NCBI GenBank assembly: GCA_028289815.1
Contig: JAPYNQ010000031.1
Span: 1 to 52,218, forward strand
DNA length: 52,218 nucleotides
Direction: 5' to 3'
DNA from: Gammaproteobacteria bacterium
GTDB taxonomy: Bacteria; Pseudomonadota; Gammaproteobacteria; JAJDYQ01
Shown here: positions 5,885 through 35,603 of the stretch, piece after piece
How positions within the stretch are numbered: the first letter of the stretch is position 1
Layout of the letters: every line of letters begins with the position of its first letter
Notes under the pieces: generated by a model
Database searches by the model: none
What the model saw: the letters and a program-made list of their open reading frames with translations, nothing else
What the model was told of the DNA's origin: nothing
Translations under genes and position numbers: made by a program

Positions 5885-6082
5885 CGAAAAACCGTAACGA
5901 GCAACATCAGGGCAAGGTGCCCGGAACAAAGCAACTACTATTATATCATCAACACATAAGAACTCTCAAAACTTGCCCTGTTTCAGTGCCTGTAAAACAA
6001 ATTGCGCCACCTGCATGAAAAGAGGTTTTATAAAAATAAGATATACTGCCGACCGCCTGTAAAAACCCAAGCCATATCTCCC

Positions 6083-17105: not shown

Positions 17106-17181
17106 GGGGCATTAGCTCAGTCGGTAGAGCAGCTGACTTTTAATCAGTTGGTCACAGGTTCGAATCCTGTATGCCCCACCA
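17106..17181 (+). tRNA. tRNA-Lys (anticodon TTT)
   Basis: A 76-base cloverleaf with encoded CCA: acceptor arms GGGGCAT/ATGCCCC, D-arm containing TAGCTCAGTCGGTAGAGCA, anticodon loop CTTTTAA with anticodon TTT at 17139-17141, and a T-arm with GGTTCGAATCC. It differs from E. coli tRNA-Lys mainly in the acceptor and anticodon stems, with compensating pairs. The defence island starts directly after its 3' end. Confidence 0.97.
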
Positions 17182-17249
17182 ACTCAAACCGCGAATCGCC
17201 AATAGCCTTTGGTGACGCACCTGCCATCCAATTGAAGTTATGTGAAGAT

Positions 17250-18380
17250 ATGAAACTGAAAAAAATCCGCTTGCAGGGGTACAAGTCCATTGACAACGAA
17301 GATGGCCAAACCATCCCCCTCGGCGACATAACGGTGCTGCTCGGCGCCAATGGTTCAGGCAAAAGCAATCTGGTCTCGTTTTTCAAGATGCTCAACTACA
17401 TGACAACCGGGGCACTTCAACAGTATGCGGGCAGGCAGGGTGCCAATCACCTGCTGTTTTATGGCCCTAAACAGACCCAATCCATTTCATTTACTCTCGA
17501 TTTTGAGTCAGATGAAGCCCATGACACATACAAGGTAAAGCTCTCACATGGGCTGCCGGACCGGATATTCATCAGCGGCGAGCAGGTTGAATACCGCAGG
17601 CCGCCGTCATCTTCACAACCACAAGAATATTACCTTGACGCCGGAGGCACTGAATCGGGATTGAGGCAGGACCATAGGAAGACCAGTGAGGTTCTGCACA
17701 AAATTCTCTCCGGCATCCGAACCTATCAGTTTCACGACACCTCGGATACAGCCAAAATCAAGGGCCGTGGCTATGTCGATGACGCAGGCTACCTGAGGAG
17801 CGATGCCGGCAATCTGGCAGCTTTTCTGAAAATGCTCAAGGAACACGAAGCATATCAAAAATACTACGCTCGCATTGTCCGCCATATCCGTCAGGTGACA
17901 CCACAATTCGGAGACTTCGACCTGGAACCGGTCCCGGGAAACGAAAACTACTGCCGCCTGAATTGGCGGGACTCTTCCGGATATGATTATCTCCTGGGTC
18001 CGGATCAGATTTCGGACGGTTCCCTGCGCTTTATGGCCCTGGTAACGCTGTTGCTCCAGCCTCCCGAACTGTTGCCGAAATTTATCGTTCTGGATGAACC
18101 GGAGCTTGGGCTTCACCCCGCTGCAATTGCCAAACTGGCAGGGTTCGTGCGCTCGGTATCACAGCAGGGCCAGGTTTTACTGGCAACCCAATCCACCGAT
18201 TTGGTAAATCAATTTTCCCTGGAGAATCTGATTGTCGTAGAAATCGAAGAGCGGGATGACAAGCATCGACATCGCTACTCTGTATTCAAAAAACTTGAGT
18301 CCGAACGATTAAAAGACTGGCTTGAGCACTACAGCCTGTCTGAGCTATGGGAAAAAAATGTACTGGGTGGCCAGCCGTGA
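17250..18380 (+). CDS. AAA/ABC-type ATPase (AAA_21, OLD/RloA-like) of a two-gene defence module
   Basis: 376 residues from ATG 17250. The frame is open back into the tRNA gene, but MKLKKIRLQGYKSI is the standard start of this family. Walker A is LLGANGSGKSNL (about residues 30-41); the signature region QISDGSLRFMALVTLLL, Walker B FIVLDEPELGLHP and the D-loop LATQSTDLVNQF complete an SMC-like ATPase head with no long coiled coil. GTGA overlap with the following DUF4276 gene shows the two form a unit. Pairs of this ATPase with a Toprim-like DUF4276 or RloB partner occur in defence islands and resemble split OLD-type and AbiL-type systems. The activity against phage is inferred. Confidence 0.85.
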   Translation: MKLKKIRLQGYKSIDNEDGQTIPLGDITVLLGANGSGKSNLVSFFKMLNYMTTGALQQYAGRQGANHLLFYGPKQTQSISFTLDFESDEAHDTYKVKLSHGLPDRIFISGEQVEYRRPPSSSQPQEYYLDAGGTESGLRQDHRKTSEVLHKILSGIRTYQFHDTSDTAKIKGRGYVDDAGYLRSDAGNLAAFLKMLKEHEAYQKYYARIVRHIRQVTPQFGDFDLEPVPGNENYCRLNWRDSSGYDYLLGPDQISDGSLRFMALVTLLLQPPELLPKFIVLDEPELGLHPAAIAKLAGFVRSVSQQGQVLLATQSTDLVNQFSLENLIVVEIEERDDKHRHRYSVFKKLESERLKDWLEHYSLSELWEKNVLGGQP

Positions 18381-19063
18381 TCCGCCTGCATATTACAACC
18401 GAAGGTCAAACAGAGCAGAACTTCGCTAAAAGGGTACTGGTGCCGCACCTGGCGAACTCCTGTGTTTCTGTCGATGCCCGGTGTGTCTTGACCAGTAGAG
18501 ACAGATGTGCGACCAGAGAATACCGTGGTGGCTTGCTGAGCTACGAGAAGGCAAAGAAAGACATTCTCTGCTGGATGAAGGAAGATGATCGTGCCGAATG
18601 TCGATTTACCACGATGTTTGATCTCTACGCCCTCCCGCAAGACTTTCCGGGTTATGACGCGGCCAAAAGACAAAGTGACCCCTACCAGAAAGTCAAACAG
18701 CTTGAAGAACAGATGGAATCGGACCTGAACGACACACGATTCATTCCCTATCTCCAGCTACACGAATTCGAGACATTGATTCTGGCAGATCCACAACAGC
18801 TGGATTGGGAATATCTGGAGCATGACACACCGATCAACAATCTGATAAAAATGGTCAGCAACCAAAACCCGGAGCTCATCAACGACAGCCCGAAAAATGC
18901 CCCGTCAAAGCGTATTAGCAGGGAAATACCGACATACGATAAAGCCACCGCCGGCGTTTCCGTCGCGAACAAAATCGGGCTTCAGACCCTCCGTGCCAAA
19001 TGCCCGCATTTCAATCAGTGGCTGACCCGTCTGGAGAAACTCAATAGCAAGGACGATGAATAG
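18377..19063 (+). CDS. DUF4276 family protein (predicted Toprim-like effector)
   Basis: 228 residues from GTG 18377, which overlaps the ATPase stop by four bases (GTGA); an upstream ATG at 18347 is in frame but would add residues absent from the family. The N-terminal IRLHITTEGQTEQNFAKRVL supplies the first strand and the conserved Glu of DUF4276. An FDLYALPQDFPG block and YLQLHEFETLILADP follow, both characteristic. By fold prediction in the literature such proteins are Toprim-like nucleases controlled by the partner ATPase; that is family knowledge, not visible here. The stop is followed by 256 bases without a gene before hsdM. Confidence 0.82.
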   Translation: MIRLHITTEGQTEQNFAKRVLVPHLANSCVSVDARCVLTSRDRCATREYRGGLLSYEKAKKDILCWMKEDDRAECRFTTMFDLYALPQDFPGYDAAKRQSDPYQKVKQLEEQMESDLNDTRFIPYLQLHEFETLILADPQQLDWEYLEHDTPINNLIKMVSNQNPELINDSPKNAPSKRISREIPTYDKATAGVSVANKIGLQTLRAKCPHFNQWLTRLEKLNSKDDE

Positions 19064-19319: not shown

Positions 19320-21236
19320 GTGAGCAACCATCCCGCTCGAACCGCACAAGGCACATCGACAGGCGCAAACCTCGGATTTGAGGACAAACTCTGGAGAGCG
19401 GCTGACAAACTGATCGGCATGATGGATGCTGCCGAATACAAACATGTAGTACTCGGCCTGATCTTTCTGAAATACATCTCCGATTCATTTCTTGAAAAAT
19501 ACGCGGCATTGCAAACAGAAGAGTTTGCCGACCCCGAAGACCGTGACGAATATCTGGCGGACAATGTATTCTGGGTGCCTGCCGAAGCCCGCTGGGATTT
19601 TCTGCAAGGCAAGGCCAGAGACCCGAAAATCGGTCAGCTGATCGACGATGCCATGACCGCCATTGAGCGAGATAACCCGGCACTTAAAGGCGTCCTGCCG
19701 AAAAACTACGCCCGACCGGCGCTGGATAAATCCCGGCTGGGAGAACTGATCGACCTGATTGCCACCATCGGCCTTGGTGATGCCGACAGCCGCAACAAAG
19801 ATATTCTGGGGCGGGTATATGAATACTTCCTGGGCAAGTTTGCCGAAGCAGAAGGCAAGCGCGGCGGACAATTCTATACGCCTCAATGCGTCGTCAAGCT
19901 GCTGGTTGAAATGCTGGAACCATACAGAGGTCGGGTTTATGACCCCTGCTGCGGTTCAGGCGGCATGTTTGTGCAAGCCATGAAATTCGTCCGGGCACAC
20001 TCCGCCGGGAATGGCAACGGTGCTACCCGCGGCGCAAGGCGCAATATCGCCATTTACGGCCAGGAATCCAATCACACCACCTTCCGCCTGGCCAAAATGA
20101 ACATGGCAATTCGCGGCATTGACGCCCATATCGAATGGGACGACACCTTCCTGAATGACAAACACAAAGGCCTGAAAGCCGATTACATACTCGCCAATCC
20201 GCCGTTCAATGATGAAGACTGGGGATTTTCAAAACTGAAAAAAGATGTCCGCTGGGCATTCGGCCTCCCTCCGGCAGGCGGCCGCCGCAAACAAAAAGAC
20301 GGTTCGACAATTCTGGTAGATGGCGGTAATGCCAACTATGCGTGGATACAACACTTTGTTCATCATCTGAGCCCGGCAGGAACCGCCGGTTTTGTGTTGG
20401 CCAACGGTTCCATGTCAACCAACACCTCTGGCGAAGGAAAAATCCGTCAAAAGCTGATTGAAGCCGACATGGTGGACTGCATGATTGCACTGCCCGGCCA
20501 GCTCTTCTACACCACACCGATTCCCGTCTGCCTCTGGTTTATGACCCGCTCCAAGAAAGCCAACACCAAATACGGCTACCGTGATCGTCAGGGCGAAACA
20601 CTGTTTATGGATGCCCGCAAAATGGGCACACTGATTGACCGGACACATCGTGAACTGTCAGCCGAAGAAATGACCGAAATCGCCCACACCTACCACGCAT
20701 GGCGCGGAAAAAACGGCGACTATCAGGACAAACCCGGATTCTGCAAATCCGCCCCCCTGACAGAGATTCAATCCCATCACTACGTTCTGACACCCGGACG
20801 CTATGTCGGAGCAGAAGCTATTGAAGACGACCTGCCTGCGCCGCATCCCGGAGTCTTTTATGTTTACGTTATCAAATGTCAAGGGGAATCATTTTACATC
20901 GGGCAAACTGATAACATTCCTCGAAGATGGCAGGAACACAAAATGGGTAAAGGCGCAGACTGGACAAAGAAAAATCCGCCGATCTACATCGCCCACTACG
21001 AAGAATTCAGTAATCGTGAAGAAGCTGTCGCACGTGAAAAGGAACTCAAAACAACTAATGGTCGAAGATGGATTAAACAAGCCATAAAAGATGGACGGGC
21101 GCGGCAGGCAGGCGGTATTCCCTTTGCAGAAAAAATGGCCGGGCTCACCGCCACCCTCTACGAGCAGATGCAGGAATCGACCCGCTTGGATGCAGTGATT
21201 CGGAAAAATCTGAAACTGTTAGGGTATGAAGAATAG
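19320..21236 (+). CDS. hsdM: Type I restriction-modification methyltransferase subunit HsdM with in-frame GIY-YIG insertion
   Basis: 638 residues from GTG 19320, preceded by AAGGAAA at good spacing; the upstream extension of the frame has no family similarity. Residues 17-140 form the HsdM N-terminal helical domain ([16 protein letters not shown]). The N6-adenine methyltransferase domain carries motif [11 protein letters not shown] and motif [10 protein letters not shown]. The usual C-terminal tail ([13 protein letters not shown] ... [19 protein letters not shown] ... [10 protein letters not shown]) is interrupted between EDD and GIPF by about 94 residues that form a complete GIY-YIG nuclease domain (residues about 504-597). 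HsdM dimerises and binds HsdS to methylate adenine. The insertion point is a surface linker in the tail, so methylation may survive. It is the first gene of the hsd operon. Confidence 0.92.
20831..21112 (+). mobile_element. GIY-YIG nuclease insertion inside hsdM, bounded by inverted repeats
   Basis: A 282-base (94-codon) in-frame insert. Its left end CCTGCCTGCGCCGC (20831-20844) and its right end GCGCGGCAGGCAGG (21099-21112) are inverted repeats, nine bases perfect and 12 of 14 overall. Deleting exactly this segment restores GAC-GGT-ATT-CCC, i.e. the family's EDD-GIPF junction. The encoded domain has VFYVYVIKC and [17 protein letters not shown], which supply the GIY and YIG motifs and the catalytic Arg. 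[18 protein letters not shown] supplies the catalytic Glu. It belongs to the short YhbQ-like group, which usually exists as free-standing proteins of about 90 residues. All recognisable catalytic residues are kept, so the nuclease could be active. Confidence 0.8.
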
Positions 21237-21281: not shown

Positions 21282-21698
21282 GTGATCGAGTACGATAACT
21301 TTCAAAAGGCACTTAAAAACCTTGAATCGCAAAACAAACACCATAAAACGCTTGATGAATCCCTGCCGGAGTGGATGAAAGAAGCCGTTGCCGAATCCGT
21401 TATTCAACGCTTTGAAACCTGCTGGGACTGTCTCTGGAAGGTAGTCAAACGCTACCTGGAACAAGAGCTCGGGCTTCCCGAAGTCCCCGGCAGCCCCAAA
21501 CCGGTTTTACGAATGGCACCAGAAAACCATCTTTTTTCATCGCCTGCTGAACAATGGATAACCTATGCAGATGCCCGCATCGCCACCTCCCATGACTATA
21601 GCGGACAAAAAGCCCAAAATACCTTGGTTCTGATGAATGACTTTGTCGATGATGCCATCGACCTGTACCAAACCATGAGCGGCGAGCGCTGGCAATAA
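21282..21698 (+). CDS. HEPN-domain protein, HI0074/HepT type (partner of MNT nucleotidyltransferase)
   Basis: 138 residues from GTG 21282, with GGAG upstream. The all-helical sequence (MIEYDNFQKALKNLE ... AVAESVIQRFETCWDCLWKVVKRYLE) matches 'nucleotidyltransferase substrate-binding' HI0074 proteins. A RIATSHDY stretch gives the RX4H motif of HEPN ribonucleases. In MNT-HEPN toxin-antitoxin pairs the HEPN protein is an RNase and the MNT partner inactivates it by adding AMP. The partner domain is present immediately downstream but fused to HsdS: its ATG shares one base with this gene's stop (TAATG). The pair therefore sits inside the hsd operon and is co-translated. Confidence 0.85.
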   Translation: MIEYDNFQKALKNLESQNKHHKTLDESLPEWMKEAVAESVIQRFETCWDCLWKVVKRYLEQELGLPEVPGSPKPVLRMAPENHLFSSPAEQWITYADARIATSHDYSGQKAQNTLVLMNDFVDDAIDLYQTMSGERWQ

Positions 21699-23941
21699 TG
21701 GGCAGGGAACTTGACAATATCGACCTGACAACCCCTCAGCGCAAGGAAATCACCGCCCTGCTGAAACACCACCTGCCCGACACCGAGGTATGGGCCTACG
21801 GTTCACGGGTCCAATTCACCGCCAAACCCTCCTCCGACCTGGATATAGTCGCCTTTACCACAAAAGAACAAAACCGTGCGGTTAATGACCTGAAAGAAGC
21901 CTTTGAAGCAAGCGCATTGCCGTTCCGGGTTGACCTCTTCGTCTGGGATAAGATTCCGAAACAGTTCCGTAAAAATATTGAAAAAGAACGCGTGATGTTG
22001 CAGAAGAAAAAAAAACCAAGAGGTTTGCCGGAGGGGTGGGTGGAAAAAACTCTGGGTGATGTGATTATCATCAATGATGATAATCACTCCAAAAAGGATA
22101 AATGGAAGTTTATCAATTACCTCGACACAGGGAGCCTTATCGAAAACCAGATTTCTGAAATTCAGCATTTGGCTGTCGGTGAAGATACAATACCAAGTCG
22201 AGCTAAACGCAAAATTCAGCCAGGAGACATCATTTATTCAACGGTGAGACCAAACCAGAAACACTATGGCATTCTGAAGAATCCTCCTGAAAATCTTTTA
22301 GTATCAACAGGCTTTTCCACTATTCGAGCAAAAAGTAAAGAGAGTGATACCAATTTCATCTATTGGTTTCTAGCTCAGCCTGAAACTGTAGAAAAACTAC
22401 AAATTATTGGAGAGCATAGCACATCAGCATACCCTTCAATTAAGCCATCAGACATTGAGGGACTGAAACTTAATCTCCCCCCACTCCCCGAACAAAAAGC
22501 CATCGCCCACATCCTCGGCTCATTAGACGACAAGATCGAGTTGAACCGGCGGATGAGTAAAACACTGGAAGCGATAGCCCAAGCCATATTCAAAAGCTGG
22601 TTTATCGACTTCGACCCGGTCAAAGCCAAAATAACCGCCAAGGCCAAGCTCAATAAAAAAAACACCAAACACCCCTCTCCCCACGAGGAAAGAACCGAAA
22701 ATAAAGCCACACACCCCTCTCCCCCCGGGAGAGGGGCCGGGGGTGAGGGAGACAAGGGAAGTAAGGGCAGAAAAACCCCCACCACACTACTAAACAACGC
22801 CCGAAAACTACGCCAATCAGCCACAGACGCCGAAAAACTCATGTGGCAACTACTGCGCGGCAGACAAATCAACAATGCCAAATTCAGAAGACAGCACCCC
22901 ATCGGGCAATACGTCTTGGATTTTTACTGCCATGACCTGAAACTGGCCATAGAACTTGATGGCAGTCAACACAATGAGACAGAGCAGAAGCGATATGACG
23001 ATAAAAGAACAGACTGTCTAGAACAGCAAGGCATCAGAATTTTACGCTTCTGGAACAATCAGGTCTTACAGGAAACCGAGGCGGTTTTAGAGGCTGTGTA
23101 TCAAGCGACGGTAGATTTGTCCCTCACCCCTGGCCCCTCTCCCCAAGGGAGAGGGGATGAAGAGCATCCGAGCGTTACCCTGGCCGCCATGCGTGCGATT
23201 AGTGGCAAAGACGAGGCCACCCTCAAACAACTGCAAGCCGACCAACCGGAAACCTACGAAGAACTCAAGCAAATCGCTGCACTGTTTCCGTCTGAACTTG
23301 AATATACGGAAGAGATGGAGTGGATTCCGAAGGGATGGAAGGTTAGTACGGTTGGTAATGAATTTGATGTAACTATGGGACAATCTCCTCCCGGTTCCAC
23401 ATATAACGCAATAGGTGAGGGGATACCTTTTTTTCAAGGATGTGCAGACTTCGGTTTCAGGTACCCATCGGAAAGAGTTTACTGCACAGCACCTAAAAGG
23501 TTTGCTGAGAAAAATGATACTTTAGTCAGTGTTAGAGCCCCCGTGGGTAATGTCAATATGGCGTTTGATGAATGCTGTATCGGGCGAGGTGTCGGAGCTA
23601 TACGACACAAAAGCTCCAGCCATTCTTATACCTATTATTCCATGCTTCATTTAAGGGAGCGTTTTAATACCTTTGAAGCAGAAGGGACAGTTTTTGGGAG
23701 TATACATCAGAAAGACTTTAAGGCGCTAAAGTGGCTTAGTTCAGATAGAGTTTTAATCGAAAAATATGAAAGACTTGCAGGACAATTTGATAAAAAAATT
23801 GAAGCCTGTTATAAGAATATTCTGAAACTAACTATTTCCCGAGACACTCTTCTCCCCGAACTCCTGTCAGGCGAGATACAGATATCTGAAACGAAAAAAC
23901 TGGTAAAGAATACAAATAGAAATGGAGACCAAAATGACTGA
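21698..23941 (+). CDS. hsdS: MNT nucleotidyltransferase-HsdS fusion with in-frame DUF559 insertion
   Basis: 747 residues. Residues 1-103 are a minimal nucleotidyltransferase (antitoxin type, HI0073/MntA) with WAYGSRVQFTAKPSSDLDIV, i.e. GSx10DxD, and a downstream VDLFVWD carboxylate. A run of nine A bases (22007-22015) encodes the linker. Residues about 110-250 are the first target-recognition domain (LPEGWVEKTLGDV) and 258-312 the central conserved helices (PPLPEQKAIAHILGSLDDKI, FKSWFIDFDPVKAK). Residues about 340-486 are the DUF559 insertion; then MRAISGKDEATLKQLQ resumes the HsdS central region. The second recognition domain (IPKGWKVSTVGNEF) and the closing helices (LLPELLSGEIQ) follow. HsdS sets the DNA sequence of the type I enzyme. 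Such a triple chimera is unusual; the fusion might be resolved by slippage at the A9 run. Confidence 0.85.
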   Translation: MGRELDNIDLTTPQRKEITALLKHHLPDTEVWAYGSRVQFTAKPSSDLDIVAFTTKEQNRAVNDLKEAFEASALPFRVDLFVWDKIPKQFRKNIEKERVMLQKKKKPRGLPEGWVEKTLGDVIIINDDNHSKKDKWKFINYLDTGSLIENQISEIQHLAVGEDTIPSRAKRKIQPGDIIYSTVRPNQKHYGILKNPPENLLVSTGFSTIRAKSKESDTNFIYWFLAQPETVEKLQIIGEHSTSAYPSIKPSDIEGLKLNLPPLPEQKAIAHILGSLDDKIELNRRMSKTLEAIAQAIFKSWFIDFDPVKAKITAKAKLNKKNTKHPSPHEERTENKATHPSPPGRGAGGEGDKGSKGRKTPTTLLNNARKLRQSATDAEKLMWQLLRGRQINNAKFRRQHPIGQYVLDFYCHDLKLAIELDGSQHNETEQKRYDDKRTDCLEQQGIRILRFWNNQVLQETEAVLEAVYQATVDLSLTPGPSPQGRGDEEHPSVTLAAMRAISGKDEATLKQLQADQPETYEELKQIAALFPSELEYTEEMEWIPKGWKVSTVGNEFDVTMGQSPPGSTYNAIGEGIPFFQGCADFGFRYPSERVYCTAPKRFAEKNDTLVSVRAPVGNVNMAFDECCIGRGVGAIRHKSSSHSYTYYSMLHLRERFNTFEAEGTVFGSIHQKDFKALKWLSSDRVLIEKYERLAGQFDKKIEACYKNILKLTISRDTLLPELLSGEIQISETKKLVKNTNRNGDQND
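22007..22015 (+). repeat. A9 homopolymer at the MNT-HsdS junction
   Basis: Nine consecutive A bases encode lysines between the end of the MNT domain and the first HsdS recognition domain. Runs of this length allow transcriptional slippage, which here would separate or restore the fusion, and are also prone to sequencing error. Confidence 0.6.
22714..23156 (+). mobile_element. DUF559 (Vsr-like) nuclease insertion inside hsdS, bounded by palindromic inverted repeats
   Basis: The left end (22714-22750) and the right end (23120-23156) are 37-base inverted repeats, 33 of 37 identical; each is itself a palindrome (CCCCTCTCCC, 3-base loop, GGGAGAGGGG). They encode the PSPPGRGAGGEG and LTPGPSPQGRG peptides often seen beside DUF559 genes. 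Between them residues 365-472 of the host protein form a DUF559/Vsr-like endonuclease domain: ARKLRQSATDAEKLMWQLLR, FRRQHPIGQYVLDFYC, AIELDGSQHNE (catalytic Asp and ExDG) and IRILRFWNNQV. A partial extra repeat copy lies at about 22671-22692. The unit is 443 bases, not a multiple of three, so some flanking sequence must have adjusted to keep the host frame. Confidence 0.75.
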
Positions 23942-26576
23942 TACATATACCAAGGCTCAATTCTGGAAATGTGCACTTCAGGTAAATTCACATACCTATC
24001 CCGCTTTACGTGGTGAGGAAAATACTATGACGGAAATAGAATATAACCAGCAACTATTAAAAATTTGTAAAGCAGAAAACATCAAGGTATTAGGTATTGC
24101 AGATCATGGCAATGTCAGCAATGTCGAAGCTATTCGAAACATAATGAAACCGGAAAATATTTTAGTGTTTCCAGGATTTGAAATTGCTTCAAGCGAAAAA
24201 ATCCATTTCGTATGTCTGTTTGATGGAAATAAGACAGTAGAAGAATTGAATCAATACTTAGGAAAACTGGATGCGAAAAGCACTAATCCTTCTACGTTGA
24301 GTGCAGAAGAAATATTCAAACGTATAGAAGATTTAGATGGCTTCTTTTATGCAGCACACTGTACAAATGATAGCGGGTTGCTTAAACAAAAAATGGATCA
24401 TATTTGGAAAAACAAATTACTTAAAGTAGCACAAATTCCAGGAGCTATTGATGATTTGAAAAGTACTAATGATGACTTTTATCACAAAGTTATTCGGAAT
24501 AAAGAACCGAACTATCGAAGAGAAACATCCATTGCTATTATCAATGCCAAGGATGTAGATAAGCCAGAGACCCTGAAACATCCTTCAGCTTCATGCCTCA
24601 TTAAAATGACTAATCCTTCATTTGAAGCATTCAAACTAGCTTTCCAGGATCCAGATTCACGAATACGTCTGAATAGTGATCTTGCAAAACAATATTACTC
24701 TCGCATAGAGTCAGTGAAGATTAAAGGAGGTTATCTGAACGAAGTGGAAATCAATTTCTCAGAGCATTTAAATGCAGTAATCGGCGGGCGAGGAACCGGA
24801 AAATCGACTTTGCTTGAGTGTATTCGTTACGCGTTGGGATTAATTCCCATCACAAAAAATGCACAGAAGCAACATAATGAAATCATAAAAGAAAATATTG
24901 GAAAGTCCAAAGGATGGATCGAATTGATTGTCCGCTCGTCAAAAATGGATAGCAAAAGATATACGATTTCCAAACGTTTTGATGAAAGTATCAATGTAAG
25001 AGATGAGAATGGAAATATCTCCAGTTTTACACCTGGAGATATTCTACCGAATATTGAAATTTATGGACAGAACGAAATTCATGAAATTGCTCATGATAAT
25101 CAGGCTTATGAAAAATTACTACATCGTTTTCTGGGAAATGAGCATGATCAATATAAAGAAAAAATCATAGAAACACTGAATGCCCTTGAAAAAAATCGCT
25201 CCAGTTTGAATAAAGTAATAGAAAACAAAGCAACTACTGAAGAAAAGTTAAACCAATTGTCAAAACTGTGCGAACGTGAAGAGCAATTCAATAAATTGGA
25301 GATTGAAGATAAGCTCAAAATTATTCCCTTTCTAGAGAAAGAAAAAAGACTTAAAAATCGTGCTAAAGAAGAATTGGAAAACTTTAAAAAGGTATTAGGG
25401 CAAGTAATAGAAGCTCTACCGAATAAGGTCTTTCTCTCTGACAAGGTAATTGAAAAACTCCCTCATACGGATATTCTTGGAAAAATAAGAGAAAGCCTTG
25501 ATCATCTCAATAAAGATGCAAAAGTGCTTCTGAATCGACTCAATACCAAATTTGCAAAACATAGCGATTTAACCACCAAACTGATAGACAGTTTACAGGA
25601 AGACATTCGTTCAAATGAAGAAGAACTTGAAAAAACCTTCAAAGAACTTCCATCCAGTCAAGGAAAAAGTGGATCAGAAATCGGCAATGAATACCAACAA
25701 CTTTTACAGAGCATTGAGAAAATCAAACCACAGCAAGACAATCTTACGCGCCAAAAAAATTGGGAAAAGGAATTGCAAGAACAACGAAAATCCCTTTTGA
25801 CTGAACTATCAGAGTATCGAGCAAGCCAAACAGCATTCTTTGAATCTTCACTTAAAAAGTTAAACCACAAGCTCAAAAACAAGTTAAGATTAACAATAAA
25901 GCCCAAAGCATCCCGGCAACCAGTAATTGATTTTCTCCTGAAATGTAATCTGGAAAATGTGGCAGAAAACCGTCTTCAATGGATTTCTAAAGAAGATGAT
26001 TTTTCTCCAGTAAAACTAGCAGAACTGATTGAAAAAGGAAAAGATGCCTTAACTGATTCTGATTGGAAAATCACACCGACTGTAACCGAAGCACTAACCA
26101 GACTATCACCTTCTAAAATTTTGCAACTTCAAGAACTGGAACTGCCCGACCTTATCGAAATTGAATTAAATACAGCGCATGAAGGAAGTATTAAATATCG
26201 TACCCTTGATAAACTTTCAAGAGGTCAACAATGCACTGCAATACTGCATCTTCTTTTGCTGCAAAACAAAGATCCCCTGATTATGGATCAACCGGAAGAC
26301 AATCTGGACAACGCATTTATTGCTGATCGCATTGTAACGGAACTAAGAGATGCCAAACTGGGCCGACAATTTATTTTTGCAACCCATAATGCCAATATTC
26401 CTGTATTCGGAGATGCGGAATGGATTGGTGTATTTAATGCCGTTGACGGACAAGGAATAATTCCCACAGAAACCCAAGGCGCGATTGATGTTCCGACTGT
26501 GAGAGAAAAAGCAGCCAGTATCCTTGAAGGGGGCCAAACTGCCTTTAATCAGCGAAAACTCAAATATGGTTATTAG
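23934..26576 (+). CDS. TrlF-like PHP-domain/SMC-type ATPase
   Basis: About 880 residues from ATG 23934, which is served by GGAG at 23924-23927 and overlaps the hsdS stop. Residues 1-210 form a PHP-type phosphoesterase domain (VNSHTYPAL, LGIADHGN, VFPGFEI, FYAAHC); the first motif has Asn where HxH is expected. Residues 260-880 are an SMC/Rad50-like ATPase: Walker A VIGGRGTGKST, a long charged coiled-coil centre (about 390-620), signature KLSRGQQCTAILHLLL, and Walker B DPLIMDQPEDNLDN. This matches TrlF-family ATPases, which are frequent companions of type I restriction loci. The gene is distinctly AT-rich compared with the rest of the operon, indicating a separate origin. Function is probably nucleic-acid sensing or cleavage; inferred. 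Confidence 0.82.
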   Translation: MTDTYTKAQFWKCALQVNSHTYPALRGEENTMTEIEYNQQLLKICKAENIKVLGIADHGNVSNVEAIRNIMKPENILVFPGFEIASSEKIHFVCLFDGNKTVEELNQYLGKLDAKSTNPSTLSAEEIFKRIEDLDGFFYAAHCTNDSGLLKQKMDHIWKNKLLKVAQIPGAIDDLKSTNDDFYHKVIRNKEPNYRRETSIAIINAKDVDKPETLKHPSASCLIKMTNPSFEAFKLAFQDPDSRIRLNSDLAKQYYSRIESVKIKGGYLNEVEINFSEHLNAVIGGRGTGKSTLLECIRYALGLIPITKNAQKQHNEIIKENIGKSKGWIELIVRSSKMDSKRYTISKRFDESINVRDENGNISSFTPGDILPNIEIYGQNEIHEIAHDNQAYEKLLHRFLGNEHDQYKEKIIETLNALEKNRSSLNKVIENKATTEEKLNQLSKLCEREEQFNKLEIEDKLKIIPFLEKEKRLKNRAKEELENFKKVLGQVIEALPNKVFLSDKVIEKLPHTDILGKIRESLDHLNKDAKVLLNRLNTKFAKHSDLTTKLIDSLQEDIRSNEEELEKTFKELPSSQGKSGSEIGNEYQQLLQSIEKIKPQQDNLTRQKNWEKELQEQRKSLLTELSEYRASQTAFFESSLKKLNHKLKNKLRLTIKPKASRQPVIDFLLKCNLENVAENRLQWISKEDDFSPVKLAELIEKGKDALTDSDWKITPTVTEALTRLSPSKILQLQELELPDLIEIELNTAHEGSIKYRTLDKLSRGQQCTAILHLLLLQNKDPLIMDQPEDNLDNAFIADRIVTELRDAKLGRQFIFATHNANIPVFGDAEWIGVFNAVDGQGIIPTETQGAIDVPTVREKAASILEGGQTAFNQRKLKYGY

Positions 26577-26587
26577 AGGTGGTTCTC

Positions 26588-27823
26588 ATGCTAAAAACCG
26601 AATTACAGGAAATCATAGCCAACGGAGAAAACTCCGGTGTTGAGTTTAAGCGTGACGATATTCGTCCCGAGCAGCTGGCTAAAGAGGTTGTGGCGCTGGT
26701 TAATTTTCAAGGTGGAAAAGTAATTTTAGGCGTTGACGATGACGGTGCCATTGCAGGGATTACCCGCCCGGATGCCGAGGAGTGGGTCATGAATGTCATT
26801 GCAGAGAAAGTACATCCGGCAATTCTGCCTTTTTATGAAGAAATCCAGGTGAACAGTGGCATCAGGGTTGCGGTACTTACCTTCCCTCAAGGTAATTCCA
26901 AACCCTATGTACGCCGACATAATAATGCCGAAGAGGTGTTCATCCGGGTGGGTTCTACATCCCGACTTGCAACACGGGAACAGCAAATGCGTCTGTATGA
27001 GATCGGCGGAATGCTTCACACCGAGGCATTGCCTGTATCCCGGACCACATCCGGTGTCCTGGACCGGGTACGCATAGAAAACTATCTCACGGATGTTTTG
27101 CGCGATCCGGATATCCCTGAAGACGATCAGGAGTGGGAACATCGCCTCGTCAATCTCGGCTTGCTTACGGCACCACAGGGAATGGCTACCGTAGCGGGAC
27201 TCGTTTTGTTTGGAAAACAGCCACGGCAACACTTGAGACAGGCCGGAATCAGGGTTTTTGTATTCGACAGTATCGAAAAAGAATACCAGGCAAAGCTGGA
27301 TCGTATTCTGGATGCCCCATTAGTGGCGCGGCTTGATTTTTCTGAGGGGGAACGGCGTATTGTGGATAACGGATTGGTTGAAAAACTGCTTGATGCTGTC
27401 GGGCCTTTCATCTTGCAGGAACCAGCGGAGGTGAATGAGGGGCTAAGACGGGATAAGAGATATGCCTTTCCGGTTGAGGCTATTCGGGAGGTTTTAATCA
27501 ATGCGCTTGTCCATAGAGACTGGACCCGTTTTGTCGATATTGAGATTGGTATTTACAGTGATCGCCTGGAGATCATCAGCCCGGGCGGGCTGCAAAACTC
27601 AATGACGGTCGAAAAGATGGTCGCGGGACAACGATATACCCGGAACACAACGATTATGGAAATCATGCGTGATTATGGCTATGTGGATTTTCGGGGAATG
27701 GGCATAAGAACCAAGGTGATACCGTTAATGAAACGGCGTAATAATTCCGAACCGATCTTTGAGGCAACAGAAGACTATTTGAAAACCATTTTATACCGCA
27801 AAGATAGCCAGATCGGTTCATAG
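26588..27823 (+). CDS. AlbA_2 (Schlafen-type) / HATPase_c_4 ATP-binding protein, first copy
   Basis: 411 residues from ATG 26588, preceded by GAGGTGG at five bases; an in-frame GTG at 26579 lacks such a site. The N-terminal 130 residues form the AlbA_2/Schlafen AAA_4 domain (GENSGVEFKRDDIRPEQLAKEV, ALVNFQGGKVILGVDDDG). Residues 260-400 carry a GHKL-like region (FPVEAIREVLINALVHRDW, RLEIISPGG, FRGMGIR). Such proteins are common beside type I restriction genes and may act as regulators or effectors. It is followed two bases later by a second, diverged member of the same family. Confidence 0.83.
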   Translation: MLKTELQEIIANGENSGVEFKRDDIRPEQLAKEVVALVNFQGGKVILGVDDDGAIAGITRPDAEEWVMNVIAEKVHPAILPFYEEIQVNSGIRVAVLTFPQGNSKPYVRRHNNAEEVFIRVGSTSRLATREQQMRLYEIGGMLHTEALPVSRTTSGVLDRVRIENYLTDVLRDPDIPEDDQEWEHRLVNLGLLTAPQGMATVAGLVLFGKQPRQHLRQAGIRVFVFDSIEKEYQAKLDRILDAPLVARLDFSEGERRIVDNGLVEKLLDAVGPFILQEPAEVNEGLRRDKRYAFPVEAIREVLINALVHRDWTRFVDIEIGIYSDRLEIISPGGLQNSMTVEKMVAGQRYTRNTTIMEIMRDYGYVDFRGMGIRTKVIPLMKRRNNSEPIFEATEDYLKTILYRKDSQIGS

Positions 27824-27825
27824 CC

Positions 27826-29010
27826 ATGCACGCCAAAGGCGAATCCCAGAACACCGAATGGAAAACATCGTGGCAGGATGACTATCTGAAATGGATCTGC
27901 GGCTTTGCTAATGCTCAGGGCGGACGGATTTATATCGGTAAAGATGATGGCGGAAATGTCATCGGTTTGAAGAATGCCGGGAAACTGCTGGAAGACTTGC
28001 CGAACAAGGTTCGTGATCGGTTAGGACTGATACCGCACATCAATCTGCTCGAAGAGGATGGAAAAAACTATCTGGAAATCATCGTCGAGTCATCAACTGT
28101 GCCAATTTCCCTGCGCGGTTCCTATTACTGGCGCTCCGGCAGCGTGAAGCAAGAATTAAAGGGTCAGGCGCTGACCGATTTTCTTCTCGAAAAAATGGGT
28201 TTGACTTGGGATCGGGTGGTCGAAAAAACAGCGACGCTGGATAACATCGACGAAACCGCTATTGAACAATTCAGGAAAGATGCGGCAACGGCAGGTCGTT
28301 TACCCGATTTAAGCAGGCTTTCAGCCGAGCGGGTTTTAACAAAACTGCGCGTTCTCACCAAAGACGGCCTTACTCATGCCGCTTTGATTCTTTTCGGTAA
28401 AGATCCGGGAGAGTTTTTCCCGAATCTTTTTGTAAAGATCGGGCGATTTGGCAAAAGCACGGTGGATATGCGCTTCCAGGAGGTTTGTGAAAGAAACCTG
28501 ATTCAGCTTCTCAGCGATGTCATGGAGCAACTGGAAAAGAAATTCTTGATCAAGCCGGTGCGCTTTGAAGGCATCCGACGCATTGAAGAATTGGAGTATC
28601 CGGTGGCGGCTTTACGGGAAATGCTGCTCAATGCGCTGGTGCATCGCAACTATCTGGGCAGTATGACCCAGATAAAGATATTTAATGATCGGCTGACCAT
28701 CTGGAATGCCGGCCAACTCCCTGCAGAGTTGACCATTGAGAAACTGTTTCAGATGCACGAATCCGTCCCGCGAAATCCGCTGATTGCCGAAGTGTGTTAC
28801 AAGGCCGGCTACATTGACTCGTGGGGGCGCGGGGTTGAGAAAATCACAGACGCTTGCCGACAGGCCGGATTGCCCGGCCCAATCATTGTTGAAAGAACCG
28901 GGGGTATAGCCGTTGAACTGCTCAAAAATCAGGTGAAAACGCCGGTGAAAACGCCGGTGAAAACGCCGGTGAAAACGTCGGCCCTCAAAAAGGCGGCCGC
29001 TGGCAGGTGA
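27826..29010 (+). CDS. AlbA_2 / HATPase_c_4 ATP-binding protein, second copy, C-terminally altered
   Basis: 394 residues. AlbA_2 domain at the N-terminus (SQNTEWKTSWQDDYLKWICGFANAQGG, IGKDDGG), HATPase_c_4 at 240-360 (YPVAALREMLLNALVHRNYLG, GRGVEKITDACRQAGLP). Full-length relatives continue after a VKTP repeat linker into a winged-helix domain that ends in 'VGPKKGGHWEV'. Here the VKTP repeats (28932-28979) are followed by only a few residues in a shifted frame. The expected ending VGPQKGGRWQVIK is present in the +1 frame (about 28978-29018). So the winged helix has been deleted through the repeats and the last codons are out of frame. The GHKL part looks intact. Confidence 0.82.
   Translation: MHAKGESQNTEWKTSWQDDYLKWICGFANAQGGRIYIGKDDGGNVIGLKNAGKLLEDLPNKVRDRLGLIPHINLLEEDGKNYLEIIVESSTVPISLRGSYYWRSGSVKQELKGQALTDFLLEKMGLTWDRVVEKTATLDNIDETAIEQFRKDAATAGRLPDLSRLSAERVLTKLRVLTKDGLTHAALILFGKDPGEFFPNLFVKIGRFGKSTVDMRFQEVCERNLIQLLSDVMEQLEKKFLIKPVRFEGIRRIEELEYPVAALREMLLNALVHRNYLGSMTQIKIFNDRLTIWNAGQLPAELTIEKLFQMHESVPRNPLIAEVCYKAGYIDSWGRGVEKITDACRQAGLPGPIIVERTGGIAVELLKNQVKTPVKTPVKTPVKTSALKKAAAGR
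28932..28979 (+). repeat. 12-base tandem repeat encoding VKTP
   Basis: Four head-to-tail copies of a 12-base unit (GGTGAAAACGCC; the last ends GTC). They encode a (VKTP)n linker at the C-terminus of the second AlbA_2 protein and mark the point at which the reading frame is lost. Confidence 0.9.
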
Positions 29011-29014
29011 TTAA

Positions 29015-29158
29015 ATGATGAAGTACCGGCTAATCAGCTTTTGCAGTCCGGAACCTCAACCGGTACCAATTACAACAATTATTCAAGCATCCGATGAAAC
29101 CGTCCGCATCTTTTTCACTGTTAAGGCATCCCAAACCGACGGCATAAATGAAAAATAA
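29015..29158 (+). CDS. Small ORF between AlbA_2 gene and hsdR
   Basis: 47 residues (MMKYRLISFCSPEPQP ... ASQTDGINEK), no family recognised. Its ATG overlaps in ATGA fashion the ancestral stop codon (29016-29018) of the AlbA_2 frame described above, and its own stop overlaps the hsdR start by 11 bases. This position between two coupled genes is the only support; no clear ribosome-binding site is seen. Confidence 0.4.
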   Translation: MMKYRLISFCSPEPQPVPITTIIQASDETVRIFFTVKASQTDGINEK

Positions 29159-32100
29159 CTCATCACCTGCCAAAATGTCAGAGTACAGTTTGGAGCAAGC
29201 CTGCCTGCAATGGTTGTCCGAACTCGGCTGGTATTCAATCCACGGGCCGGACATCGCCCCGGATACCCCTGATGCAGAACGCATAAGCTACTCTGGGGTG
29301 ATTCTTAAAGAACGGTTGAGGACTGCACTTTCGCGGATCAATCCCGGTATTCCTGCCGTCGGCATTGATGAGGCAGTAAAAAAATTACTGGTGGCTGACT
29401 CCCCGGATCTGCTGGTCAATAATCGCACCTTTCACAACATGTTGACCGACGGTATTGATGTTGAAGTATCATCAGAAAGCGGGCACAACGGTACCCGATA
29501 TCGGAAGGTGTGGCTGGTTGATCTGGAAAACATCGACAATAATAATTTTATCGCTGTAAACCAGTTTACCTGTATTGAAGAAGGGCATGATCGTCGGGCA
29601 GATGTTGTTTTGTTTTTGAACGGTCTGCCTGTCGTCATCTTTGAATTAAAGAATCCGGGCAATGAAAATGCGACTATAAGACAGGCCTTCAATCAGCTTC
29701 AAACCTATAAAAAAGACATTCCGATATTATTTACTACCAATGAACTGCTGGTGATCTCCGATGGCATACTTGCCAGGGCCGGAACCCTGACCAGCGAGTG
29801 GGACCGTTTTATGCCCTGGCGAACCGTCTCCGGTGAGGAGGTAGCTGCAAAAGGAACCCCTGAGTTGGCAACTCTGATCAGGGGGCTTTTCGAGCGGCGA
29901 CGCTTTCTCGACTATATCCTGAATTTTATTGTCTTTGAGGATGACGGTTTCAGGTCAGCCAAAAAGGCTGCCGCCTATCACCAATACTGGGCGGTGAATA
30001 AGGCATTGACCTGTACCCTGTCGGCCTGTGGCATAGACACCGACCCGGAAAAATTGATTGGCCGTTTCCCGCCTGTACAACCTCCCTTGGGAGTCAAAGA
30101 AGATGCGCCTGTCTATGGAAAAGGGTCAGGACATTTTGACGGCAGGAGAATCGGTGTCATCTGGCATACACAGGGAAGCGGCAAAAGTCTTTCCATGACA
30201 TTTTATGCCGGGAAGGTTGTCCGTCATCCCGATATGAACAATCCGACCCTGGTTATTGTGACGGATCGAAATGATCTGGATGATCAGCTCTTCGGTACAT
30301 TTGCTGGCTGCCGGGACCTGCTTCGTCAATCCCCGGCTCAGGCCAGAGCTCGGTCCCATCTCAAGGGACTGTTGAAAGTCCCCTCCGGCGGAATTGTTTT
30401 CACGACCATTCAAAAATTTATGCCGGACGAGCGCGGCGATGCTCACCCCCTGTTGTCTGGCCGTAAGAATATTGTAGTGATCGCAGATGAAGCCCATCGC
30501 AGCCAGTATGATTTTATTGATGGCTTTGCACGGCATCTGCACGATGCCTTACCGAATGCCTCATTTATCGGTTTTACCGGGACCCCGATTGAACGTGACG
30601 ACAAAAGCACCCCGGCGGTTTTCGGTAACTACATTGATAAATATGACATTCTGCGTGCGGTTGAGGACGGGGCCACAGTGCCAATCTACTATGAAAGTCG
30701 GCTGGCCCGAATTGAATTGAGTCAAGCTCAACTGGCCGCAATTGACCCGGAGTTTGAGGCGATCACAGAGGCAGAGGAAGAAACGGACAAACAACGGCTC
30801 AGAACAAAATGGGCGGCATTTGAAGCCCTGATCGGTACCGATGAGCGCATCAAGCGGGTTGTCGAGGACCTGGTTTCTCATCTTGAGAGCAGACTCGATA
30901 CGATGGACGGCAAAGCCCTGATCGTCTGCATGAGCCGCCGTATCTGCGTCGATATCTATAATGCCCTCAAGGCAATCCGACCGGACTGGCACAGCGAGGA
31001 CGAAGCAAAGGGCTTTATGAAGATCGTGATGTCCGGGTCTGCTTCGGATCATATTGACTGGCGGCCCCACATCCGTAACAAGGTCGGACGCGAAGCTCTG
31101 GCCAGGCGGTTCAAAAATCCCGGCAGTAACCTCAAATTGGTCATCGTCCGTGATATGTGGTTGACCGGCTTTGACTGCCCCAGCCTGCATACCATGTATA
31201 TCGACAAACCCATGAGCGGGCACAATCTGATGCAGGCCATTGCCCGGGTCAACCGGGTATTCCGGGATAAGCCCGGCGGGCTTGTGGTTGACTATATCGG
31301 TCTGGCAGATTCATTGAAAAGAGCACTTGCCAATTACACCGCCGGCGGCGGTCAAGGCGCTGCTACGGTCGATCAGGAACAGGCCGTAACAGTGCTCATG
31401 GAAAAATACGAGATTGTGCGCGATATACTGCATGGCTTTGATTACACCGCTGTGCTTAAAGACATTCCGGCCGGAAGAATATCCGGTATAACACAGGCGA
31501 TGGAGTTCATTCTCGGCCTGGAAGATGGCAAAAAACGCTATCTTCCCGCCGTCTCTGCGCTTACCAAGGCGTTTGCGCTTGCGGTTCCACATGAACAAGC
31601 CATTCGGGTTCGTGACGAAGTCGGCTTCTTTCAGGAGGTCAGGGCTGCGCTGGTCAAGGCTACCGGTGATGCGCAGGGACGGACACCGGATGAAATGGAT
31701 TCGGCCATAAAACAACTGGTTTCACAGGCCGTATCATCAACCGGAGTGATTGATATCTTTGCGGCGGCCGGCATGGATAAGCCGGATATCTCCATTCTGT
31801 CGGATGATTTTCTGGAGGAAGTCAAAGCCCTGCCACAAAAAAATCTGGCTCTTGAACTCCTGAAAAAACTGATCAACGACGAGATCAGAACATGTTTCAG
31901 GAAAAACGTCATTCAGGCCCGATCATTTGCAGCAATGCTGGAGCAGGCGGTGAAAAAATATCAGAACCGTGCGATTGCGGCGGCTGAGGTCATACAGGAG
32001 CTGATTGAACTTGCGCGAGAACTCCGACAATCTGAACAGCGTGGCGACAGCTTGGGCCTGACAGAAGATGAAATCGCTTTTTACGATGCGCTGGCAGACA

Positions 32101-32345
32101 ACCACAGCGCACGGGACATCATGGGTGACAAAAAACTTTGCACCGTAGCACAGCTGTTGGTTGAACGGGTAAAACGCAGCGTCTCTATTGACTGGACTCT
32201 GCGAGAAAATGCCCGCGCTCAAATCCGGGTAATGGTTAAAAAAATACTCCGCCAGTATGGCTATCCACCTGACCTGCAAAAAGCCGCGACAGAACTGGTG
32301 ATTGAGCAGGCCGAGATGCTCTGCAGGGAATGGAGCGTGGGGTAA
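29148..32345 (+). CDS. hsdR: Type I restriction enzyme motor/nuclease subunit HsdR
   Basis: 1065 residues, normal for the family. The N-terminal PD-(D/E)XK nuclease domain shows RRADVVLFLNGLPVVIFELKNP (residues about 147-168) with the QLQTYK motif following. The helicase/translocase core has Walker A HTQGSGKSLS (about 340), DEAHRSQY (about 447) and GFTGTPI (about 473); the second RecA-like domain holds LTGFDCPSLHTMYIDKP and ARVNRVFRDKPGG. The C-terminal helical region binds HsdM/HsdS. Together with hsdM and hsdS it completes a type I restriction-modification enzyme. It is separated from them by the trlF, two AlbA_2 genes and a small ORF, an order typical of accessory-loaded type I loci. Confidence 0.95.
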   Translation: MKNNSSPAKMSEYSLEQACLQWLSELGWYSIHGPDIAPDTPDAERISYSGVILKERLRTALSRINPGIPAVGIDEAVKKLLVADSPDLLVNNRTFHNMLTDGIDVEVSSESGHNGTRYRKVWLVDLENIDNNNFIAVNQFTCIEEGHDRRADVVLFLNGLPVVIFELKNPGNENATIRQAFNQLQTYKKDIPILFTTNELLVISDGILARAGTLTSEWDRFMPWRTVSGEEVAAKGTPELATLIRGLFERRRFLDYILNFIVFEDDGFRSAKKAAAYHQYWAVNKALTCTLSACGIDTDPEKLIGRFPPVQPPLGVKEDAPVYGKGSGHFDGRRIGVIWHTQGSGKSLSMTFYAGKVVRHPDMNNPTLVIVTDRNDLDDQLFGTFAGCRDLLRQSPAQARARSHLKGLLKVPSGGIVFTTIQKFMPDERGDAHPLLSGRKNIVVIADEAHRSQYDFIDGFARHLHDALPNASFIGFTGTPIERDDKSTPAVFGNYIDKYDILRAVEDGATVPIYYESRLARIELSQAQLAAIDPEFEAITEAEEETDKQRLRTKWAAFEALIGTDERIKRVVEDLVSHLESRLDTMDGKALIVCMSRRICVDIYNALKAIRPDWHSEDEAKGFMKIVMSGSASDHIDWRPHIRNKVGREALARRFKNPGSNLKLVIVRDMWLTGFDCPSLHTMYIDKPMSGHNLMQAIARVNRVFRDKPGGLVVDYIGLADSLKRALANYTAGGGQGAATVDQEQAVTVLMEKYEIVRDILHGFDYTAVLKDIPAGRISGITQAMEFILGLEDGKKRYLPAVSALTKAFALAVPHEQAIRVRDEVGFFQEVRAALVKATGDAQGRTPDEMDSAIKQLVSQAVSSTGVIDIFAAAGMDKPDISILSDDFLEEVKALPQKNLALELLKKLINDEIRTCFRKNVIQARSFAAMLEQAVKKYQNRAIAAAEVIQELIELARELRQSEQRGDSLGLTEDEIAFYDALADNHSARDIMGDKKLCTVAQLLVERVKRSVSIDWTLRENARAQIRVMVKKILRQYGYPPDLQKAATELVIEQAEMLCREWSVG

Positions 32346-32348
32346 ACT

Positions 32349-32404
32349 CTCAGGAAACCATCGTAAAGAAGATGTTACTGGCATCAGAATAGATGTTTCC
32401 TGAG
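32349..32404 (+). terminator. Inverted repeat after hsdR, probable operon terminator
   Basis: CTCAGGAAAC (32349-32358) pairs perfectly with GTTTCCTGAG (32395-32404), and ATC/GAT extends the stem past a one-base bulge. The right arm is followed by CATCTTTTAT. The loop is long (about 30 bases), but position and T-rich tail fit termination of the hsd operon. Confidence 0.45.
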
Positions 32405-32501
32405 CATCTTTTATCAGCACTATCCGTCCCCTGACAAGGCCGGCACCCGCCTCCGATCTGTTAAAATGGATAAAAACCCATAGCGGGAGGCAAATCAAAA
32501 A

Positions 32502-35599
<3,098 letters not shown>

Positions 35600-35603
<4 letters not shown>

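Follow-up and report, generated by a model that had tools for sequence, protein, structure and literature searches.

A contig of 52,218 nucleotides (nt) from a gammaproteobacterium (JAPYNQ010000031.1, assembly GCA_028289815.1), referred to here at its full length as the window, was found to carry a type I restriction-modification methylase gene, hsdM, whose tail is interrupted by a 282-nt unit encoding a GIY-YIG nuclease. The insert was best explained as one copy of a minimal, unspliced, in-frame and hairpin-bounded nuclease element of the homing type that resides in defence genes, and the probability of this reading was put at about 0.8. The evidence lies in the boundaries of the unit, in the empty sites of homologous genes, in further copies with the same ends, and in the distribution of these copies over host and unit trees. 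Other loci and genomes are identified below by L and G numbers.

The host gene (19320..21236, plus strand) was recognized by the Pfam profiles HsdM_N (E value of 3.1e-24) and N6_Mtase (E value of 7.2e-101). The unit lies in frame on the same strand at 20831..21112, and its 282 bases run exactly from CCTGCCTGC (20831..20839, plus strand, within the conserved CCTGCCTGCGCCGCG) to the inverse GCAGGCAGG (21104..21112, plus strand, within the conserved GGCGCGGCAGGCAGG), just as a first-pass annotation, made from the letters of the window, had described. The repeat search listed a longer inverted repeat, 20823-20844 with 21099-21120, that is 77% complementary. The inverted repeat exceeds chance, its nucleotides being preserved across different host genes in almost every one of 24 copies. 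The unit starts at the third base of a codon, its whole codons being 20832-21113, and together with the target flanks GA and CGG it spans 20829..21116 (plus strand); the empty site of homologues is typically GACGGC. The proposed interruption of the HsdM tail by a GIY-YIG domain was borne out by PF01541, which matched residues 513-582 of HsdM (20856..21065, plus strand) with an E value of 8.3e-14 in the whole protein and 1.5e-15 against the unit alone, and by the model and solved relatives described below. The genome contained the unit once, the sole other match at an E value of ≤0.01 being a 33% identical protein. No unit was found at an E value of ≤1e-8 in the two sister genomes of the genus, and the hsdM site is empty in one of them (L106). 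The alignment to the best solved HsdM relative, 3khk, ends at residue 504, the last before the insert and seven residues short of the chain end, which places the insertion site at the joint to the C-terminal tail and says nothing more. An AlphaFold prediction of HsdM with its insert (five rows) had a mean predicted local distance difference test (pLDDT) score of 41.5 and gave no usable model of HsdM, the insert alone reaching about 85.

Excision of the unit in silico gave the joint EDD-GIPF, which had been taken for the normal HsdM sequence. HsdM homologues were collected at an E value of ≤1e-150 from 274 genomes of the same class (25 with a match, own included), 149 genomes of Planctomycetota, the phylum of G097 (14, seed included), and 151 genomes of Chloroflexota, the phylum of G095 (13, seed included). 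When these were aligned to the insert-free HsdM of the window, 46/52 covered the joint with exactly zero extra residues, and the empty site is the rule. The remaining six could not be mapped, and no GIY-YIG motif was found in their available sequence; the joint of L291 lies beyond the contig end, and L282 has no tail. The first-pass annotation had named the outcome that would speak for an old fusion, namely, all close homologues filled and without inverted repeats, and this was not what was found. The typical empty-site DNA reads gaagacgac/GGCGAGCC, with the slash at the joint. Exact insert-free joints were also obtained for one HsdR site (L012 and L014 against L136) and for the type ISP site (L010 against L137); the alignments for DUF1156 and one HsdR were too loose to fix the exact joint. 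No target duplication was seen at the HsdM joint, and a duplication of 1 to 2 bases is possible where the ends are ambiguous. The left flanking codon was GAC at 8/10 distinct sites and the right one GGN at 7/10, given as counts alone since the background rates for the target-site test (1/30 and 0.08) were assumed.

A contig scan with the 94-residue unit, whose six peptide patterns fall in its interior, returned 27 loci. Eighteen of these had the unit with LPAP...RQAG ends or close variants, within a longer or decayed frame; among them, L021 was ended by the contig edge, L027 was truncated, and L018 contained a stop. Eight loci were free-standing or decayed distant relatives. At the last, L013 (4001-4249), a related GIY-YIG domain was inserted in the N terminus of HsdR without LPAP/RQAG ends, and L264 proved to be a similar HsdR N-terminal case without these ends, adjoining a different palindrome-like stretch (CTGTCTGCGTGC...CACGCACAG). 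Whole-genome searches of 18 carrier or relative genomes plus 1034 genomes sampled in three phyla, made with a profile that included the end residues and no nucleotides, added seven copies with ends (L066, L140-L142, L263, L265, and L266). Carriers (E value of ≤1e-30, seeds included) numbered 5/345, 3/395, and 4/294 genomes in the three phylum samples, a distribution that is rare yet wide. Including the window, 24 complete copies were present at ten sites; L021 and L027, both incomplete, were dropped from this count, as were L013 and L264, which have no such ends.

The HsdM tail accounted for six of these copies, followed by an HsdM-type methylase before AWID (three), three sites in HsdR (two, one, and one), type ISP (three), two sites in a DUF1156/HmaB methylase (three and two), an HmaA-like SNF2 helicase (two), and a PD-(D/E)XK nuclease (one). 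Hosts were named by Pfam profiles, and PADLOC, applied to eight proteins (the hosts of L140-L142 and L263-L266 being outside its coverage), returned HmaA, HmaB, type IIG, PglX, and type I methylase. Only the PD-(D/E)XK host (L141) could not be tied directly to a defence family. A search for the same domain and ends at other loci, as the first-pass annotation had recommended, thus added nine sites and five gene kinds, and the mobility of the unit, which we still infer, now has strong support from comparison. The derivation from a free-standing YhbQ-like nuclease fared less well: such relatives exist, but at 28 to 46% identity they are distant. No full unit was present in phage records (24 records matched, all <60% identical and none covering 80% of the query) or in plasmid records (16 records matched, all <60% identical, one covering 80%). 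In viral contigs, the full unit was unconfirmed in all seven pattern hits, and the six peptide patterns of the window HsdM gave no match. Four units scanned against NCBIfam matched no family over the cut-off, with one sub-threshold match to a group I intron endonuclease (L010). At L020, a free-standing GIY-YIG gene (3950-4276) directly follows hsdM on its 3' side with a 20-nt palindrome in between, apparently an intergenic seat in the same type of operon, and another palindrome lies inside the next hsdS (5905-5924).

The ends of the unit were conserved at the nucleotide level. Over the 24 copies, the consensus was (C)CTGCCTGCGCCGCG on the left and GGCGCGGCAGGCAGG on the right, with few exceptions. 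The left-end codons were CTG in 21/23, CCT in 23/24, GCG in 22/23, and CCG in 21/23 copies, and the right-end codons were GCG in 19/20, CGG in 21/22, CAG in 24/24, and GCA in 23/24. Leaving Trp aside, the other residues conserved in 19 or more rows were encoded by 2 to 6 codons each, the commonest at a frequency of 0.20 to 0.71. All 16 aligned rows end in QAG and begin with LPAP or close variants. With end codons frozen and interior codons varied, protein constraint is insufficient as an explanation, and a function or copying of the DNA would account for the difference. Ends that serve as protein motifs alone were rejected on this ground. In L014, GCAGGCAGG, a right-end sequence, directly precedes the left end of the unit (1525-1542), as though a second copy or scar were present.

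A host tree was built from 56 HsdM host parts, leaving out L005 (213 aligned positions) and L281 (short). The five testable carriers fell in five places, and five changes were not only needed but forced by well-supported branches. None of 200 bootstrap host trees (0%) contained the carriers as one clade, which was also rejected by the approximately unbiased (AU) test (p=4e-72). With 5 carriers among 56 rows, the simpler reading is that the changes were gains, and they would then represent the repeated horizontal acquisition at one site among empty alleles that is expected of homing. That all six HsdM copies sit at one codon position is what a single old fusion inherited with hsdM would predict; this idea was rejected by the host-tree changes and the AU test, would take very many exact losses in HsdM alone, and leaves the unrelated hosts aside, so that hardly any credence is left for it.

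The flanks of the insert bear on a further alternative, in which ordinary homologous recombination spreads hsdM segments with the insert as a passenger. The HsdM body of L004 was 91% identical to the empty L273 and at most 77% identical to any carrier; its insert was 73 to 81% identical to the other five HsdM inserts. The 40 and 100 residues to the left of the insert were nearer an empty HsdM in 5/5 carriers, and the tail after it in 3/5, with empty rows far outnumbering filled ones. These flanks argue that no long tract moved with the insert, and recombination of long hsdM segments was rejected because the left side was nearer empty HsdMs in all five carriers. In its favour, same-site copies are alike, and the 40-residue tail of the window was slightly closer to L003 (74%) than to any empty HsdM (70 to 71%). 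A very short recombined tract is possible and would itself resemble homing. As a general account, recombination was considered improbable.

In a 33-row tree built from the unit, the copies grouped by insertion site across phyla. The nine site groups needed 8 changes, the minimum, compared with a mean of 20.7 after shuffling and none as low in 200 shuffles. One change each was counted for the HsdM, ISP, and HsdR-A sites and two each for D1156A, MTaseB, D1156B, and SNF2. Lineages thus followed site rather than organism, though not every site formed one clade, and as far as the tree can tell, this clustering matches a homing pattern.

Short hairpins with the ends of the unit, 18 to 63 nt long, were found in frame within the same kinds of gene. 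The HsdR of L014 contains 39-nt and 18-nt in-frame copies in addition to a full unit, and its alignment with L136 showed gaps of 13 and 6 residues, the exact sizes of the short copies; L138 aligns less cleanly there. The DUF1156 genes of L011 and L015 each carry a 36-nt copy plus a full unit, and an unnamed open reading frame (ORF) after the DUF1156 gene of L015 has 63- and 39-nt copies. In L004, a 39-nt copy lies in the hsdS located 3' of the filled hsdM, outside the alignment made. In G104, the HsdM has a 30-nt copy, an HmaA-like helicase three short copies, and a PglX-like methylase two, and the region of this HsdM also encodes an HsdR with a full unit. Palindromes with the same ends numbered 33 in G104, compared with 0 for a reversed control pattern; exact ones were present in 13 of 21 genomes searched, at most 6 per genome outside G104. 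Among distinct G104 sequences of >20 nt, 12/13 were multiples of three (P of 1.7e-5), a count that excludes the 20-nt palindromes and takes coding status from open frames alone. The 20-nt form CCTGCCTGCCGGCAGGCAGG is not a multiple of three and lies mostly outside recognizable genes. By hand count, 8/11 longer palindromes in other genomes were multiples of three; three of these eleven came from G096 and appear unrelated.

Ten chosen short copies folded better as single strands than their shuffles (z scores of -2.25 to -4.75); in several, a two-base bulge separates an outer stem from an inner one, and the pairing varies by example. One can regard the full unit as a hairpin of this kind whose loop contains the nuclease. 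Hairpins of 24 to 33 nt with the element ends, all multiples of three, were also noted with a 15-base end pattern in at least six viral contigs (L162, L179, L183, L204, L207, and L222). The genome of the window (G000) contains six 17-nt palindromes of the form CTGCCTGC-A/T-GCAGGCAG, and the form CCTGCCTGCCGGCAGGCAGG was not found in it even at three mismatches. Other in-frame repeats were observed in the HsdM loop before YED(V/I)PGF, a CCCCTCGCC...GGCAGGGGTGAGGG stretch in L006 (3821-3910) and tandem VGAGLVPAQP units in L101.

The main rival mechanism follows from these hairpins. In it, the GIY-YIG or another enzyme moves a bulged hairpin through a single-stranded intermediate into the short target GA^CGG, in the manner of repetitive extragenic palindromes and their associated tyrosine transposases (REP/RAYT) or of IS200/IS605, and the recurrence at HsdM is due to a preferred target combined with selection for sites where insertion does no harm. 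The folding of the ten short copies, the dispersal of same-end copies in G104, the GAC and GGN flanks, and the HsdM joint, where the absence of an extra residue excludes a target duplication of codon length or longer, all suit this mechanism. A six-base target, however, occurs in very many genes, and the concentration on one HsdM codon and the clustering by site fit homing better; moreover, most other genomes searched have few or no such palindromes, and we know of no GIY-YIG enzyme that acts as a transposase. Hairpin transposition is regarded as a tentative alternative, clearly less probable than homing.

The unit itself was modelled as a compact domain with a mean pLDDT of 86.7. Its nearest solved relatives were the UPF0213 proteins 1zg2 and 1ywl, then Slx1, all modest structural matches (template modelling scores of about 0.5 to 0.6). 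Tyr12, Tyr22, Arg32, and Glu69, which we take to be the catalytic residues, were invariant in 16/16 rows. The profile match and these conserved Tyr, Tyr, Arg, and Glu residues place the predicted nuclease in the GIY-YIG superfamily. Synonymous divergence (dS) could be computed for three of nine pairs, in which the ratio of nonsynonymous to synonymous divergence (dN/dS) was about 0.15, 0.05, and 0.06, values that point to purifying selection on the nuclease in these pairs. Inteins are splicing domains with a Cys or Ser start and a His-Asn end; the unit, which adds little to the GIY-YIG fold, begins with an LPAP-type sequence and ends in QAG, and it does not match this description.

Purifying selection in the three measurable pairs, together with hosts that are almost all defence genes, could mean that restriction-modification enzymes recruited an accessory nuclease domain several times to improve defence. 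This was judged unlikely: the ten sites of the unit are spread over methylase, motor, helicase, and nuclease proteins, its end nucleotides are frozen, close homologues do without it, nuclease-free short copies stand in the same kinds of gene, and 3/24 copies contain stops.

Under the homing reading, a single frame of about 94 GIY-YIG residues would form the loop enclosed by an imperfect terminal inverted repeat and be open from end to end, so that the host gene could still be read and the nuclease would persist, unspliced, as a domain within a loop or linker that tolerates it. Produced as part of the host protein, an active nuclease would cut the empty allele at about GA^CGG, and repair would copy the element in, with the hairpin ends possibly recognized by the nuclease or by the repair machinery. 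Horizontal spread, most likely by homing, would mostly be to alleles still uninterrupted at the same site; rarer jumps to new sites, mostly in restriction or other defence genes, would perhaps use the hairpin ends, and the short same-end hairpins would be non-autonomous or decayed derivatives of the full unit. As to the bias for defence genes, it can only be guessed that these are among the genes that distant bacteria exchange most often, where empty alleles would be met, or that they are dispensable enough to withstand an insertion.

Several observations weigh against this account. Neither movement nor cutting was observed, and the HsdM host-tree changes could in principle be losses. Apart from the catalytic fold, no DNA-binding domain is apparent in the unit, which leaves site specificity without explanation. 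Counted by copies, GAC was on the left in 17/24 and GGN on the right in 17/24, and the DUF1156-A site has neither. The unit tree was well supported at 7/30 inner branches, and the D1156A, MTaseB, D1156B, and SNF2 copies were not single clades. Synonymous divergence was saturated in 6/9 same-site pairs, indicating that the spread is old or poorly sampled, and the full copies included no pair that had moved recently. Exact same-end palindromes were missing from 8 of 21 genomes, some of which are carriers. Internal stops in 3/24 copies (L018, L265, and L266; 21/24 were stop-free) imply that some copies are decaying. Finally, the named records with full ends are metagenome assemblies, which would also suit an artefact of assembly or binning; the chance of this is negligible given that many phyla are represented among the records whose copies are in frame with exact ends, and given an HsdR insertion with an empty homologue described from Methylococcus capsulatus (Dunin-Horkawicz and colleagues, 2006, PMC1564403).

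The same operon of the window may contain a second inserted nuclease, of another family. By domain scan, hsdS (21698..23941, plus strand) begins with a nucleotidyltransferase domain, and the linker between its two specificity regions contains a nuclease-like domain, DUF559. Repeat finding placed this DUF559 unit (22714..23156, plus strand) between 37-nt inverted repeats, 22714-22750 and 23120-23156, that are 89% complementary, and the domain was present in 0/3 of the HsdS homologues aligned (L096, L004, and L113). If it is an insertion, the phenomenon would be wider than the GIY-YIG family. On a Synechocystis plasmid (CP101712.1; L267, 3001-5525), a DUF559-type endonuclease gene splits a DUF1156 gene out of frame, about where L017 has its GIY-YIG unit, and two unrelated nuclease units may thus share a hot spot. 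Taken together, the DUF559 and GIY-YIG units hint at a general class. An ORF before hsdS (21282-21698) matched NTase_sub_bind and, with the nucleotidyltransferase domain of hsdS, seems to form a pair, presumably HEPN/MNT-like, that has been fused into the restriction operon. An AAA ATPase plus DUF4276 pair lies upstream of hsdM (17148-19063), and further defence-like genes extend downstream (23922-35603), namely, an SMC-like gene (23922), two AlbA_2 ORFs (26579 and 27826), hsdR (29148), and an SNF2 helicase gene (32502).

A literature search, with subscription papers mostly outside its reach, returned nothing on such an insertion family, these ends, or such DUF559 units. We see an even chance that the elements constitute a distinct class of mobile element, an open-ended hairpin-loop nuclease frame that enters genes in frame, is carried unspliced in anti-phage proteins and sheds short hairpins, with the DUF559 units of the neighbouring hsdS and the cyanobacterial DUF1156 gene as a second, independent family. 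Homing nucleases are usually seated in an intron, an intein, or an intergenic spot that keeps them harmless. Here, the nuclease apparently resides within functional proteins themselves, and in those that destroy mobile DNA. One 282-nt unit of 94 residues with known empty sites also makes an experimentally ready system.

With homing endonuclease elements (mobile introns, inteins, and free-standing GIY-YIG homing genes), the unit shares a single nuclease gene, repeated change at one site among uninterrupted alleles, site-clustered lineages, and purifying selection where measurable. It differs from them in showing no sign of an intron (no covariance search was made) or intein, in that the domain seems to be retained in the host protein, and in its hairpin-forming ends, in having little beyond the catalytic fold, and in its short same-end derivatives. 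The UPF0213 (YhbQ-like) proteins 1zg2 and 1ywl and Slx1 are alike in sequence profile and fold, but these are free-standing small proteins and a multi-domain eukaryotic nuclease, respectively. Rickettsia palindromic elements are selfish palindromes that lie in frame in protein genes and are translated within the host protein, as the short copies are here. The comparison, made by description and not by sequence, ends at the nuclease that one form encodes within the palindrome and at hosts that are mostly defence genes; such in-frame palindromes of protein genes gain a possible engine. Miniature inverted-repeat transposable elements (MITEs) and REP/RAYT are short hairpins carrying the ends of a longer protein-coding element, and the short copies with the terminal repeats of the full unit resemble them in this respect. 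Here, however, a GIY-YIG nuclease replaces the transposase, and the copies lie in frame in genes.

A published case close to this one is the HsdR of Methylococcus capsulatus, MCA0838, in which a GIY-YIG domain is inserted near residue 800 and an 80% identical homologue is without it (PMC1564403). The main text of that paper, in which a term search found neither 'inverted repeat' nor 'palindrom', called the insertion unique and asked whether other GIY-YIG members are molecular parasites. Compared by its published description, with site and ends not taken from sequence, the MCA0838 insertion is the same kind of event as the one in the window, and the family described here offers a partial answer to the question raised in 2006.

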